A DNA stretch of 45,961 bases from Candidatus Aquidulcis sp. GTDB taxonomy: Bacteria > Chloroflexota > Anaerolineae > Anaerolineales > UBA4823. The translations under genes and the position numbers were made by a program. The notes under the pieces are model-generated. The model was not told the DNA's origin, did not search any database, and worked only from the letters and a program-made list of their open reading frames with translations. Where the stretch lies: the NCBI GenBank assembly GCA_020723385.1, contig DYIZ01000001.1, forward strand, positions 22,074-68,034. Direction: 5' to 3'. This document shows positions 2,469 through 34,328 of the stretch, piece after piece (position 1 is the stretch's first letter; each line of letters opens with the position of its first letter).

Positions 2469-3056
2469 TCATTCCTTGGGTTTGATGATGCTCCCGCAGT
2501 AGGCGCATTCGGCGCTGGTTTCGTCCAGCCATTCGATTTCATCGGGGCGGAGGGTCGCGCCGCAAGAAGGGCAATTGGCTGGCAGAAATGGGCGGCGCGA
2601 AACCGGTTGAGGGCGCGCTGCCTGGCTGGAGGCGGGAAGGCCGGCGGGCCGGTTGGCCTCCAGCCATTGGCCGATATCTTGGGCAGGCTGTGGATAGCCG
2701 TTTCGATTCAGCTCGGTGATGGCGCGGTTGCCAATCTCATCCACCCTGGCCCATTCGGTGACGGTAGCCAGCAAGCGTAAACCCTCGAAAAAGACGTTCA
2801 ATCCGGCGCTGATTTGCCCGTCGAGCAGCAAAGCGCGGGCGGCTTGCAGGTACAGGTGGGCAGCCTGCCGGGGGCGGCCAAAATCGTGCGCGCCGCGTGC
2901 CAGGTTGTCGTAAAGCTGGGCGGCATTGGCAAAATCGCCGACTTCCATCAACCGGTTGGCGCGGATGAGCGCCCGCTGCGGGCCAGCGCCGAGCGGGGCC
3001 TGGGCGGGCCTTGGGCGATAGCGCATCCCTCGGGTAAATATACGGCCGCGACGCAT
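2469..3056 (-). CDS. Helical-repeat protein with C-terminal zinc ribbon
   Basis: 195 residues. The middle (about 28-130) is Ala/Leu-rich and helical, with a TPR-like look (ANRLMEVGDFANAAQLYDNLA, then RQAAHLYLQAARALL). The C-terminus carries a zinc ribbon with CPSCG (C162, C165) and CAYCG (C184, C187). The start at 3056 has AAGGAG seven bases upstream. The family is not one I can name. The architecture suggests a cytoplasmic protein-protein interaction or scaffold role, but no function can be assigned. It sits between trmI (upstream, separated by a palindromic repeat) and the CoA-type Nudix gene, with which it overlaps or nearly overlaps, so the two are probably cotranslated. Confidence 0.75.
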   Translation of the reverse strand: MRRGRIFTRGMRYRPRPAQAPLGAGPQRALIRANRLMEVGDFANAAQLYDNLARGAHDFGRPRQAAHLYLQAARALLLDGQISAGLNVFFEGLRLLATVTEWARVDEIGNRAITELNRNGYPQPAQDIGQWLEANRPAGLPASSQAARPQPVSRRPFLPANCPSCGATLRPDEIEWLDETSAECAYCGSIIKPKE

Positions 3057-3069
3057 AAGCTATCTCCTT

Positions 3070-3152
3070 GTGAAAGGCGCTCTGAGCGTAGTCGAAGAGC
3101 GCCAAACTGCTGCTAAACGGCATCCTTCGACTACGCTCAGGATGCCTTTCAC
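3070..3152. repeat. Paired REP-like palindromes (family R1)
   Basis: Two head-to-head copies of a small hairpin share the core CTGAGCGTAGTCGAAG. In the left copy the flanking stem is GGCGCTCT/AGAGCGCC; in the right copy it is GGCATCCT/AGGATGCC. The stem bases differ but each is self-complementary, while the core is conserved. The outer ends GTGAAAGGC and GCCTTTCAC are also inverted. The element ends directly at the stop codon of trmI (3153-3155). It fills nearly all of the gap to the next gene. Confidence 0.85.
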
Positions 3153-3986
3153 TCAAATAGCCAATTCCGGCTCCTCCGGTTGGTCTTCGATGGGCATGTC
3201 CATCGCCACCGGGCGGGCGAAGATGAGAAAGCCGGTATGGGCCACCATGCGGTCGGTGGGGCGCAGGCGGGTGGCGGCAGTTTTGTAATAGCGCAGCAAG
3301 ATTTCGCACACATCTACGAAAGCAAAGTGCTCGCGATGCAGGGCGATCAGCAATTTCGAGACCTGGTTGGTGGTGGGCAAAATACAGCCAAAGAATCCAC
3401 CCGACTTGAGCGCCCGCCGGACCTGCGCCATGTAATCGTAGGGGTTGGGAACATCCAGGAACAGGGAATCCGCGTCGGTTTCGTCGAAGCCCTCGAGGAT
3501 GTCACGCAGCTTGAAGGTCACCCGGTCGGCGAGTCCCAGGCGGGCCAGGTTTTTCTGGGCCAGTTTTTGCATCTCGGGCCGGCTCTCATAGGTGGTCACG
3601 CGTCCCTGCGGGCCGACCATCGCTGCTAACACACTTGTCAGCCCGCCGGAGCCGGTGCCCGCTTCGATGACATGCCGGCCGGGTTGAATATCCATGTGCA
3701 TCAGCGCCAGCCCGACATCTTTGGGATACATGATTTGGGTGATGCGCTTGGTCTCTTGCAGCAGATCGGCGAGAGAGGGTTGCAACAGGGTGAAGGGACT
3801 GTCAAGATGGGTGTTGACCTGGCTGCCCCATGGCTTGCCGATCAATTCGTTGTGCTGGAGAATACCCCGGTGCGTGTGCAATTGTCCATCGGGGACGAGG
3901 GTGATGAGAAAGCGTTTGTTGGTGGATGAGATGAGCTGGGCAAGGTCGCCAGGTTGGGCGAGGGAGGAGGTGGGAGGTTGGGTCAT
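3153..3986 (-). CDS. trmI: tRNA (adenine-N1)-methyltransferase, TrmI family
   Basis: Catalyses SAM-dependent m1A formation in the T-loop (position 58) of tRNA. The 277-residue protein has the expected length. An N-terminal beta domain is followed by a Rossmann fold with motif I VIEAGTGSGGLT (residues 106-117), an acidic ribose-binding residue in TTYES (E134), the catalytic-loop region LFLDVPNPY (about 176-183) and the family C-terminal block RLRPTDRMVAHTGFLIFARP. The start at 3986 has GAGGA six bases upstream. It follows the S9 peptidase on the same strand across a 26-bp-armed inverted repeat. The C-terminus is acidic (EDQPEEPE). The family tetramerises and is common in archaea, actinobacteria and thermophilic bacteria. 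Confidence 0.93.
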   Translation of the reverse strand: MTQPPTSSLAQPGDLAQLISSTNKRFLITLVPDGQLHTHRGILQHNELIGKPWGSQVNTHLDSPFTLLQPSLADLLQETKRITQIMYPKDVGLALMHMDIQPGRHVIEAGTGSGGLTSVLAAMVGPQGRVTTYESRPEMQKLAQKNLARLGLADRVTFKLRDILEGFDETDADSLFLDVPNPYDYMAQVRRALKSGGFFGCILPTTNQVSKLLIALHREHFAFVDVCEILLRYYKTAATRLRPTDRMVAHTGFLIFARPVAMDMPIEDQPEEPELAI

Positions 3987-3996
3987 TGGGGGTCCT

Positions 3997-4056
3997 CGTG
4001 AAACGTAATGCGTAAAACGTAAAAAGTTAATTACGTTTTACGCATTACGTTTCACG
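3997..4056. repeat. Inverted repeat, 26-bp perfect arms (family R2, copy 1)
   Basis: Arms 3997-4022 and 4031-4056 are perfect reverse complements around an 8-base A/T loop. Each arm is built from the words CGTGAAACGTAATGCG and TAAAACGTAA. The right end lies two bases from the stop codon of the S9 peptidase (4059-4061), and the left end touches the GAGGA ribosome site of trmI. A second copy with an identical first arm lies at 34263-34328. There is no T-tract on the gene strand, so it is a repeat element rather than a clear terminator. Confidence 0.9.
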
Positions 4057-4058
4057 TT

Positions 4059-5969
4059 TTATGGTCTCAAATGCTTCTTGAAAAACTCGGTAATGGTGTT
4101 GTAACATGCGACGCGGTTTTCGTACTTGAGAACGTCATGGCCTTCGTTTTCGAACATCAGGTATTCGACGTTTTTCCCAATGGATCGCAGGTGCTCCACC
4201 AGATCGCGCGACTCTCGCTCGACAACGCGCGGGTCGTTCTTGCCCTGGATGACGAGCATCGGGCAGGCCAGGTTGTCAATATAGGTGCGCGGCGAACGCT
4301 CGACAAGTAAGGCGCGATCCTCGGGTTTGTTCGGGTCGCCGACCTCGATGGCGAAATATGGCTTCCAGGTCTCGGGGATGCGATCTATGAAAGTGATCAG
4401 ATCGTAAGGCCCGAACATATCTACTGCCGCTGACCAAAGATCCGGGTGGCGGCCCACTTGCATGAGGGTCATGTAGCCGCCGTAGGATCGTCCAATAACT
4501 GCTGCCCGTTGGGTGTCAATTCGCTTGTCGGAGGCCAGCACTTTCATGGCGTGGACATGATCCAGGCGGTCCTGCCCGCCCCAGTCGCGGTCTACTTGCT
4601 TGGTGTAATTCAACCCATAACCGGTGCTGCCGCGCACGTTGGGGACGAATACTGCGAAGCCGTTGAGTGTCAGGAACTGGATGAGCGGCATCGAAAACCA
4701 GGCAAAATCGGGGCGTTCCTGTCCCTGCGGGCCGCCGTGGATGTAATAGACCAGCGGATGCGGCGACTTGAAGCCAAACGTTTCAGCCGGTAAGTACAGC
4801 CGCGCCGAGACGCGCGTGCCGTCGAAGGATGTGAAGGATGCATCCTCGCCGGCGGAGAGCCAGTCTCCCGATATGCCCAGGATGCGCTCGCGGGTGTGAC
4901 GGACGATGGTTTTGCGGTCTTTGCCTTCGATCGTGTAAATTTGGGTTGGGGAAGTTGCGGTTGAGAAGGAGAGCGCATACCGGTCGCCGGTTTGATCGTA
5001 GTGGCTGGCCTCCAAAACACCATTGGCAAGCACGCCCTGACCGCAAAGCACCATTTCGAGATTCAGGGTCAGTGCAGTTTCGTCAAAAACACCTTCGTAC
5101 AGCCAGGAACAACTGTCAATATTATAGGCGACCAAATAACGATTGCCAGTCAGATGTTCCATCCCGCCCATTTCGCCGCTTCCGGTATGAACGACGCCGG
5201 TTATGGTTACGGGTTTGATTTCCTGGGGATTGGCGAAACTCAGGTATCCCAGACCGTACGTGTCGCTGAACAAGGCATTCTGGAAGAGAAGTCCGCGATT
5301 GCCCGGCGCGATGTGCCCACCCTGAAAGCCGAGCAGCGGTACTTTCTGGCCTTCGGCGCGTTCTTCGAGCGGCGTCCCATACAGCAATTCAGCCTCTCCA
5401 TCGCCTTGTTTCCACAGGTAGAGCACCTGGTCGCCCACGGTGTAGCCGTCAATCAGAATAGCCTGGGTGTGATCGTCGTTGATCGCGGCAGGGTAATGAC
5501 CCCATGGGCTTGCCCCCAGCTTGACCAGTTCGCCGCTTTCCAGGTTGCCTCGGTAGGTCTCGTTCATCTGCTCGCTGCGCGATTCGGCGATGAAGTACGC
5601 GATGTTGCGTTCCGAATCGCAGTGGCCCAGGTGAACGCGGTAATTGGCGAAGAAATTGTCGAACGCCGATTCAGGAAAACCACCCTCGGTGGGGATGAGC
5701 ATCGGCTGGTAGTTCTCGTCTCCGTCGCGGTCAATCATCACCAGGATCTTATCCAGCTTGGGGAAGACAAAAAGCGCCTCACCGTCAATCAGATGGGGGT
5801 TGTGCAAAGCAATATTGGGAGGCAGGAGCGGCTCGGGCACACTGCCGCCGTAATCCATGCCGTACAGGCTGAGATGTCCGCTTATGTTGCTAAGAAAATA
5901 CAGGCGATTTCCAACGACATGCGGCGTCAGAAAAAGCCGTGCAGAGAGAAGCGATTCAACGCGTATCAT
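4059..5969 (-). CDS. S9 family peptidase (prolyl oligopeptidase / dipeptidyl-peptidase type)
   Basis: A 636-residue serine peptidase with an N-terminal beta-propeller (about residues 1-370) and a C-terminal alpha/beta-hydrolase domain. The catalytic triad can be read: Ser495 in GRSYGGYM, Asp579 in QGKNDPRV and His611 in ENEGHDVL. The oxyanion region YYIHGGPQGQ precedes them. These enzymes cut short peptides after proline or related residues, or remove acylated N-terminal residues. There is no signal peptide, so it is probably cytoplasmic. The start at 5969 (MIRVESLL) is chosen because AAGGAA lies about six bases upstream; a TTG further upstream would place that ribosome site inside the gene. 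It lies 21 bases after the GAF membrane protein gene on the same strand. Confidence 0.92.
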   Translation of the reverse strand: MIRVESLLSARLFLTPHVVGNRLYFLSNISGHLSLYGMDYGGSVPEPLLPPNIALHNPHLIDGEALFVFPKLDKILVMIDRDGDENYQPMLIPTEGGFPESAFDNFFANYRVHLGHCDSERNIAYFIAESRSEQMNETYRGNLESGELVKLGASPWGHYPAAINDDHTQAILIDGYTVGDQVLYLWKQGDGEAELLYGTPLEERAEGQKVPLLGFQGGHIAPGNRGLLFQNALFSDTYGLGYLSFANPQEIKPVTITGVVHTGSGEMGGMEHLTGNRYLVAYNIDSCSWLYEGVFDETALTLNLEMVLCGQGVLANGVLEASHYDQTGDRYALSFSTATSPTQIYTIEGKDRKTIVRHTRERILGISGDWLSAGEDASFTSFDGTRVSARLYLPAETFGFKSPHPLVYYIHGGPQGQERPDFAWFSMPLIQFLTLNGFAVFVPNVRGSTGYGLNYTKQVDRDWGGQDRLDHVHAMKVLASDKRIDTQRAAVIGRSYGGYMTLMQVGRHPDLWSAAVDMFGPYDLITFIDRIPETWKPYFAIEVGDPNKPEDRALLVERSPRTYIDNLACPMLVIQGKNDPRVVERESRDLVEHLRSIGKNVEYLMFENEGHDVLKYENRVACYNTITEFFKKHLRP

Positions 5970-22068: not shown

Positions 22069-22131
22069 AAAACCAAAAACTCGATGTCCGTGCGAGCGCA
22101 GCCTGCACGGACATCGAGTTTTTGGTTTTTT
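22069..22131. terminator. Bidirectional terminator, 25-bp perfect inverted repeat
   Basis: Arms 22069-22093 and 22105-22129 are perfect complements around an 11-base loop, with A-rich/T-rich outer ends (AAAACCAAAAAC, then GTTTTTGGTTTTTT). It lies one base after the MBL stop codon and ends before the plsY stop, so it can stop both convergent transcripts. Confidence 0.9.
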
Positions 22132-34262: not shown

Positions 34263-34328
34263 CGTGAAACGTAATGCGTAAAACGTAAGGCGCTTTTTAT
34301 GGATTACGTTTTACGATTTACGTTCCAC
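34263..34328. repeat. Inverted repeat (family R2, copy 2) supplying a stop codon
   Basis: The first arm 34263-34288 is identical, base for base, to 3997-4022. The second arm (34304-34328) starts TTACGTTTTACG like copy 1 and then diverges slightly. The TAA stop codon of the ABC ATPase (34318-34320) and its last codons lie in the second arm. Confidence 0.88.

Follow-up and report, generated by a model that had tools for sequence, protein, structure and literature searches.

The element at positions 3070-3152 of the window, by which we mean the entire 45,961-nucleotide stretch of DNA analysed, appears to be a REPIN-like pair within a family of REP-like hairpins that carry the core CTGAGCGNAGYCGAAG, occur in many phyla and might be mobilised in trans as single-stranded DNA hairpins. 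We assign this reading a probability of about one half. What is preserved and propagated would be the folded, single-stranded hairpin of the core strand. Its core bases would be fixed at all but one apical position, the adjoining stem pairs would need only to be complementary, and the 5' foot would vary by host group. A single-strand-specific enzyme (of the Y1/HUH type or similar), acting in trans and not encoded beside most copies, would cut the folded unit and join it into new sites without target duplication. In the window, two such units would have come to lie in opposite orientations between trmI and its neighbour, and elsewhere in the same genome other copies would ride in MITE-like elements, some with ISL3-type ends. 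The analysis shows the copy number, the covariation, the arrangement in pairs, the occupancy of this site in the source genome but in none of the relatives read, and net insertions of 24 nt in arrays; that the intermediate is single-stranded, that an enzyme acts on it and in which direction it spread are inferred.

A pair of inverted hairpins beside a trmI-like gene

The core CTGAGCGTAGTCGAAG is present twice in the element, in inverted orientation. Hairpin 1 occupies positions 3076-3103 on the plus strand (GGCGCTCTGAGCGTAGTCGAAGAGCGCC) and has the arrangement GGCGCTCT-GAGCGTAGTCGA-AGAGCGCC, and hairpin 2 occupies positions 3119-3146 on the minus strand (GGCATCCTGAGCGTAGTCGAAGGATGCC) and has the arrangement GGCATCCT-GAGCGTAGTCGA-AGGATGCC; both have 8-bp stems. 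A motif search places the conserved 16-nt core at 3082-3097 (plus strand) and 3125-3140 (minus strand). The hairpins are separated by a 15-nt spacer (3104-3118), and an inverted-repeat search shows that an outer GTGAAA (3070-3075) and TTTCAC (3147-3152) lengthen the inverted repeat, whose arms (3070-3097 and 3125-3152) are 89% complementary. Three adjacent stem pairs are swapped between hairpins 1 and 2 (T-A/C-G, C-G/T-A, G-C/A-T), and all are still complementary. The first-pass annotation was therefore correct in describing two inverted copies of a core with different, self-complementary stems.

When folded as single-stranded DNA, the region adopts as its best predicted structure one long hairpin in which the two cores pair together (-30.7 kcal/mol, z -6.45). 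By our reading of this fold, the three differing stem pairs are mismatched in the long hairpin and are matched only inside the two small hairpins. The stem differences between the copies thus suggest that each small hairpin is maintained by itself. With up to three mismatches allowed, the window contains two exact cores and one three-mismatch site, compared with 0.28 expected, and three core matches of any kind were seen in 1 of 100 shuffles of the window. We found no Rfam match and no terminator-like or promoter-like site on the element, which does not present the GC-rich hairpin and subsequent T run of an intrinsic terminator; an RNA family or terminator at this position was rejected on the basis of the Rfam and terminator scans.

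Other palindromes are also found in the window. A perfect 26-nt inverted repeat, CGTGAAACGTAATGCGTAAAACGTAA, resides beside trmI at 3997-4056 and has a degenerate second copy at 34263-34328, and the two represent another palindromic repeat family. Sub-threshold Rfam scores for microRNA families at 3988-4070 are due to this perfect palindrome beside trmI, which is unrelated to the element. A further perfect inverted repeat, of 25 nt with an 11-nt loop, is located at 22069-22129.

The element makes up 83 of the 96 nt that separate two co-directional genes on the minus strand. The upstream gene (3153-3986) encodes a TrmI/GCD14-like tRNA methyltransferase of 277 amino acids, as judged by its protein-family match, and its stop codon abuts the element. 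The downstream ORF (2469-3056) encodes 195 amino acids and has no Pfam match; the short stretch separating its start codon from the element includes AAGGAG, a possible ribosome-binding site (3064-3069, minus strand). To compare the trmI locus, we searched 38 genomes, of which 36 matched, and read 29 loci including our own. In one genome of the same family (G022), 1 nt separates the trmI stop codon from the start codon of a gene related to the second one (41% identical), which constitutes an empty site. The second gene was not found adjoining trmI in the other 27 relatives, and no core occurs within 200 bp of the trmI stop codon in any of the 28, the best site there having four mismatches. Given the empty site in G022 and the absence of the core at trmI in the 28 relatives, the element is most simply viewed as a probable addition in this lineage.

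Copies within the source genome

The first-pass annotation had regarded a lack of further copies as grounds for abandoning a REP-like interpretation. The source genome instead contains 118 core sites with up to two mismatches, compared with 4 for a reversed control pattern. We retrieved 108 of these sites, one of which (on contig C32) is apparently a chance match and was dropped from later counts, leaving 107. The family fits the general description of REPs as palindromes of 20-40 nt that are numerous, dispersed and mostly extragenic, the last point being judged from copies in other genomes. They are arranged as 34 inverted pairs, each consisting of two inverted REP-like units at short spacing as in a REPIN, and 39 other copies. 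Half of the pairs are outward (17) and half inward (17); start-to-start distances are 33-34 nt in 13 of the 17 outward pairs and 40-44 nt in 14 of the 17 inward pairs. Among these 39, a short run at C93:52055-52142 consists of hairpin units in tandem with a period of 24, and an array of the same period is present at L103 1453-1564 in another genome (G430).

Position 8 of the core (N8) is the sole free position in the source genome (T 56, C 47, A 5 of 108), position 1 is C in 97 of 108 sites, and each remaining fixed position is at least 94% one base, a composition that is biased by a search permitting up to two mismatches and leaving position 8 open.

Stem covariation and the hairpin apex

Covariation was examined in four collections by comparing the stem pairs of copies, which are kin and hence not independent trials, with 2000 shuffles. 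At pairs 1 and 2, which adjoin the core, Watson-Crick pairing is found in 98 and 97 of 107 copies in the source genome (shuffle means 39 and 38, maxima 57 and 52), in 54 and 52 of 66 copies in other Chloroflexota (means 31 and 32, maxima 40 and 47), in 123 and 118 of 139 copies in other genomes (means 56 and 48, maxima 71 and 71), and in 124 and 123 of 143 copies in viral contigs (means 49 and 53, maxima 65 and 70). Sliding the alignment by one base reduces pair 1 to 44, 33, 70 and 57 copies in these same four sets. All four pair types are represented at pair 1 in three of the sets, and three types in the other Chloroflexota. Pair 3 is Watson-Crick in 61 of 107 copies in the source genome (shuffle maximum 56) and exhibits little or no excess outside it (64 of 139 in other genomes, maximum 67; 50 of 143 in viral contigs, maximum 57; and 10 of 66 in other Chloroflexota, which is below the mean). 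Among the matches listed, stem pairing is the majority state in each phylum with at least four copies, and the chance matches that the reversed pattern gives in viral contigs pair without excess (6 of 19 and 5 of 19). The test of stem covariation over genomic copies that the first-pass annotation had called for is therefore strongly positive at the core-adjacent pairs in all four collections, and the absence of base-pair covariation that it had set against its own idea does not apply, as illustrated by pair 1 in the source genome.

G-T wobble pairs on the core strand outnumber the mirror mismatches at pairs 1 and 2 (46 vs 23 in 478 copies), which is a modest sign that the core strand may be the strand that folds; at pair 3 they are barely more frequent (89 vs 73 in the same 478 copies). 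Because N8 is the free base, the composition of the core suggests an apex with tandem sheared G-A pairs, a GNA triloop and a bulged pyrimidine. GNA triloops are stable structures. Position 11, the counts for which are informative only for C against G and A because loci were retrieved with T patterns, is T in 438, C in 35, G in 1 and A in 0 of 474 cases. In the fold predicted for DNA the 12-nt apex is unpaired, and an RNA program favours an alternative CG/CG helix. A version without the bulge, CTGAGCGNAGCGAAG, covaries too (71 of 122 vs 31.6 expected). Hairpins of the GTCATTCTGAGCGAAGCGAAGAATC type are common in genomes and may be relatives of the core, a relationship with which the no-bulge search agrees.

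Distribution across phyla

Exact copies of the core are present in 54 of 400 Chloroflexota genomes, including our own, compared with 3 control matches among those listed. Dense sets are found in distant families, with 89 (G414), 32 (G138) and 23 (G086) sites, and the other 36 genomes of the window's own family have 0 to 10 sites each at up to one mismatch. In a collection of named genomes, the matches listed comprise at least 119 core loci and 24 phylum names, with Bacteroidota commonest (48) and cyanobacterial genomes accounting for 13 of the 119 listed. By our own arithmetic, a 15-base pattern in 257 Gb of even composition should yield ~480 chance matches, so a single match in a phylum proves little, but the pairing excess shows that most listed matches are real. 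Viral contigs hold at least 120 core stretches, whereas the reversed pattern gives 26 in all of them together.

The 5' foot of the hairpin varies by group. It is mostly AGGC or AAGC in the source genome, and TGTCA, GTTC, GTTTA and GCYTG are found elsewhere; among the matches listed, TGTCA occurs in 24 of 55 Bacteroidota copies and GTTC in 6 of 15 Pseudomonadota copies. TGTCA or CGTCA is a frequent foot in the listed copies from Bacteroidota and Bacillota. In other genomes, 80 of 104 copies lie outside ORFs of at least 150 amino acids and 24 lie inside, according to a crude ORF call in which some ORFs are perhaps spurious. One genome (G309, loci L137-L146) carries a longer conserved repeat of the form TAGCGGCGATCCCTTGTGGTCGGTC-core-GATGGCCC, apparently a larger repeat family. 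A search of literature text, with figures and most subscription papers outside its reach, returned no match to the exact core. The literature matches listed for related 11-12-mers look unrelated by title, and the one that concerns repeats is a primer match.

Insertion and replacement at target sites

Some copies reside in short-period arrays that become regular once the hairpin unit is removed. This pattern was detected for 6 of 468 copies (one in the source genome, four in other Chloroflexota and one in a Chisholmbacteria genome). All six arrays have period 7, and the net length removed is 24 nt in three of them and 31 nt (24+7) in the other three. In six rounds of a control with shuffled right flanks, 2, 0, 0, 0, 0 and 0 copies passed, with lengths of 36 and 38. 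Two period-8 arrays (L131 and L132) that were identified by eye also give 24 nt. The net 24 nt would fit insertion without target duplication.

Two coding sites show a different outcome and constitute the evidence for replacement. In a loop of a fused methylmalonyl-CoA mutase gene of Flavobacterium, for which 50 of 113 matching genomes were read, 8 of the 50 aligned orthologs carry T(G/C)TC(A/T)TC(C/A)TGAGCGNAGTCGAAGGA and the others carry sequences resembling TGTTTTACCAAGCGGAATTGCAGAA. The hairpin here replaces a partly similar target, with length kept in seven of the eight; the F. tructae sequence is 18 nt longer. All eight belong to the 30 orthologs that were aligned first, and none to the 20 aligned later, although one of these (L476) shows partial similarity. 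When the flanks of the first 30 are placed on a tree, the hairpin state requires 6 changes, at least 3 of which are forced by well supported branches, and a single change suffices in 0 of 200 bootstrap trees. The state is not clearly clustered on this tree, since 82 of 500 shuffles were as low. In a histidine-kinase gene of Aequorivita, 3 of 21 aligned orthologs are filled, and the filled gene has a net gain of 15 nt relative to the nearest empty ortholog, with target bases replaced. The mode of arrival is thus mixed, with 24-nt insertion in some settings and replacement elsewhere.

MITE-like elements that carry the core

Terminal inverted repeats accompanied by a target duplication, the hallmarks of MITEs, are present around 4 of 67 core clusters in the source genome under a strict test, compared with a mean of 0.2 and a maximum of 1 in 30 shuffles. 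The clusters on contigs C55 and C80 have 8-bp target duplications and GGTTCTCTGGG-like ends. These ends resemble, at 16 of 25 positions and against a hand-typed consensus, those of an ISL3-family element on contig C203 (L703 1469-3248), which has GGTTCTCCCGCAATTT ends and a transposase gene divided between two ORFs. About 1 kb from this ISL3-family element there is also a MITE-like element that carries the core. The outer flanks of copies define three families with 9, 6 and 5 copies. The window element has no terminal repeats with target duplication, and its flanks match none of the outer-flank families. As only a minority of clusters pass, MITEs were rejected as a general account of the core.

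RAYT and other Y1 enzymes

A profile search of the source genome detected six Y1 matches: an IS200 gene (C176), a RAYT gene above the cut-off of NCBIfam NF047646 (C66, L033 1106-1900), a RAYT-like gene below the NCBIfam cut-off (C133), a Y1-like domain within an ORF of 519 amino acids (C169), and two fragments located where contigs end (C74 and C95). The RAYT gene that the first-pass annotation had suggested looking for is thus present on C66, but the palindromes flanking it are not the core: GTGGACTATCGTCCAC and GCCGGACGACAGTCCGGC are located directly at the gene ends, and a core pair is 1.1 kb away. With its own palindromes, the C66 RAYT gene forms a separate REP system in the source genome.

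We also inspected 60 further RAYT loci, the best-scoring 30 from Chloroflexota and 30 from other groups, in which three genes appear twice. None of the 60 has a core with up to two mismatches within 300 bp of the RAYT gene. Cores with up to one mismatch occur within ~1.5 kb of RAYT in three (L391, L404 and L425), a two-mismatch site is found at a greater distance in L403, and three-mismatch sites are near RAYT in L429 and, on both sides, in L424. The last of these loci is from Hymenobacter, in a genome where the core is present as well. Within 180 bp of its RAYT gene (1309-2094), two hairpins upstream and one downstream share the apex AGCGNAGCGA; they have the form CAGTCTAAGCGNAGCGACGACTG, stems of 6-7 bp and A, A and T as apical base. 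This apex equals that of the no-bulge variant save for one base and has three mismatches to the core pattern. Across the 60 loci and our own RAYT locus, sites with the AGCGNAGCGA apex occur near RAYT genes three times, always in L424, and elsewhere three times. The L424 hairpins keep a RAYT-type enzyme in play.

In a Balneolia locus (L165), the core is 107 bp from a RAYT-like gene (1380-2215), upstream of which are two core-like hairpins. This gene contains an internal GTAG palindrome, GTAGAGACGCG...CGCGTCTCTAC (identified by eye), that is unrelated to the core. We considered L165 as a REPtron and rejected this, reading the closeness of core and gene, at this one locus, as probably coincidental because the gene carries its own GTAG palindrome. 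RAYT matches were absent from 6 of 19 Chloroflexota genomes picked for core copies, one of which (G088) is a single contig, and from 9 of 48 genomes of other groups. Orientation relative to local GC skew is unbiased (50 vs 47 of 97 single copies), and the lagging-strand preference expected of a transposon that uses lagging-strand single-stranded DNA was accordingly discarded. RAYT as a linked mobiliser of the core was rejected as well, given the different palindromes at C66 and the 60 loci without a nearby core. The REP/REPIN interpretation of the first-pass annotation hence stands as regards the large family, the covariation and the common inverted pairs, and its proposal of mobilisation by RAYT is not borne out.

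Possible modes of spread

We consider, with moderate confidence, that an unlinked single-strand-specific enzyme is the most likely mobiliser, and that templated copying is its main rival. An unlinked enzyme is favoured because the core does not flank RAYT genes and because RAYT matches are absent in some core-bearing genomes. No enzyme was found to be linked to the core itself, in a survey that covered RAYT genes systematically and other transposase classes less so. Further observations count against the main reading: copies show no orientation bias relative to GC skew, the Flavobacterium hairpin replaces its target and is not an insertion, the DNA fold leaves the apex open, and pair 3 has little or no pairing excess outside the source genome. 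In the rival account, the hairpin would be copied without a transposase, by a stalled or switching strand that copies a resident hairpin and returns at chance microhomology, so that the hairpin overwrites or extends its target; stems would also stay complementary if palindromes were corrected in this way. The patchy distribution of the hairpin among Flavobacterium orthologs (8 of 50, with seven of eight at the same length), the net 15-nt gain with replaced bases in Aequorivita, the lack of a linked transposase among the RAYT genes surveyed and the lack of target duplication in arrays all agree with such copying. Allelic recombination of a gene segment between Flavobacterium species can produce patchiness too, however, the clean 24-nt insertions in arrays look like those of a defined unit, and the argument rests on two coding sites, so we regard templated copying as rather unlikely. 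Somewhat more doubtful is selection at the RNA level, with hairpins kept as mRNA elements (for stability or operon attenuation) and their spread being secondary. The location between two co-directional genes, the tolerance of G-T pairs on the core strand and the crude count of 80 of 104 copies outside ORFs of at least 150 amino acids are compatible with this, but the other 24 copies are inside such ORFs, some perhaps spurious, the element has no Rfam match or terminator-like site, and a mobile unit accounts more readily for the inverted pairs and tandem arrays.

Two explanations that invoke known transposases seem improbable to a similar degree. If the copies were carried along passively inside DDE-type MITEs that ISL3-like and other transposases mobilise, the four clusters that pass the strict test (e.g., those on C55 and C80, against a shuffled maximum of 1), the ISL3 transposase with GGTTCTCCCGCAATTT ends on C203 and the three outer-flank families would be accounted for. 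The other 63 of 67 clusters fail this test, including that of the window, whose flanks are outside the outer families, and capture by MITEs leaves unexplained why the same core with varied stems is found in many phyla. A classical REP/REPIN moved by RAYT might be suspected from the RAYT gene in the same genome, from inverted pairs that are typical of REPINs, from the AGCGNAGCGA-apex hairpins on both sides of the L424 RAYT gene and from the core near the L165 gene; yet the RAYT gene of the source genome has other palindromes, none of the 60 loci has a core with up to two mismatches within 300 bp, the foot lacks an unpaired GTAG (GYAG sits in the apex), and several core-bearing genomes have no RAYT match. 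A bolder proposal, which we hold as speculative and doubtful, is that the 16-nt hairpin core is a transposase-free replicator that spans many phyla and whose folded single strand is copied at replication forks, both overwriting targets of partial similarity and inserting elsewhere, with the same coding loop repeatedly rewritten in related species and with host groups differing mainly in the 5' foot.

Relationship to known repeats and significance

The element resembles the CGTC-tagged REPs (Di Nocera et al. 2013), which are described as short palindromes with complementary stem variants and dimers in 5 phyla, and, in that description, as REP-like repeats with no known mobilising enzyme and no flanking transposase gene (PMC3733652). 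The core hairpins share the short palindromes, complementary stem variants, dimers, presence in several phyla and absence of flanking RAYT genes, and many core copies from Bacteroidota are preceded by the tag in its TGTC form (as TGTCA in the 24 of 55 among the matches listed). Unlike CGTC REPs, the foot in the source genome is mostly AGGC or AAGC and not CGTC, TGTC or CCTC, none of which occurs at the window element, and the 8-bp stems in the window begin with G-C, G-C, whereas CGTC REPs have 8-9 bp stems with A-T as first and second pairs. In a comparison based on the published text, the core may overlap with a described CGTC family, especially as regards the TGTC-tagged Bacteroidota copies.

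GTAG REPs, REPINs and REPtrons, which are associated with RAYT/TnpA-REP, are presented as small intergenic hairpins for which single-stranded DNA recognition is presumed (PMC8266576). The core hairpins are likewise small, intergenic, arranged in inverted pairs and irregular in stem or apex, and the L424 RAYT gene is accompanied by a related apex. However, the core foot lacks GTAG (most own copies have AGGC or AAGC, and GYAG is in the apex), and, unlike in REPtrons, no RAYT gene is directly beside the core except near L165. REP double-foot insertions are reported for subclass 2.4 RAYT genes (PMC6006769), and the GTAG palindrome within the L165 gene, although unrelated to the core, is similar in this respect. 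The SDR repeats of cyanobacteria (Elhai et al. 2008) are characterised as dispersed, possibly mobile sequences of ~20 nt, of which SDR5 reportedly uses the interior of HIP1 sites for insertion (PMC4390886, PMC2884548). By description, not by sequence, the core unit is comparable in being small, dispersed and also present in cyanobacterial genomes, but the one Nostoc core copy inspected (L201) lies outside a HIP1 site, unlike SDR5. In its own genome, the element works like a REP/REPIN and departs from GTAG REPs in tag and RAYT association, and from CGTC REPs in tag and in the A-T start of the stem.

A survey of REPs in bacterial and archaeal genomes refers, in a section heading, to relatively low REP motif similarity across them (PMC12306157), and one core shared so widely is therefore unexpected. 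A core in which a single apical base is free, the stem pairs covary and the feet depend on the host provides a defined substrate with which to fish for the mobilising enzyme, for which the L424 RAYT with its related apex is a first candidate. The pairs of filled and empty genes in Flavobacterium and Aequorivita allow a direct test of whether the hairpin inserts or overwrites.
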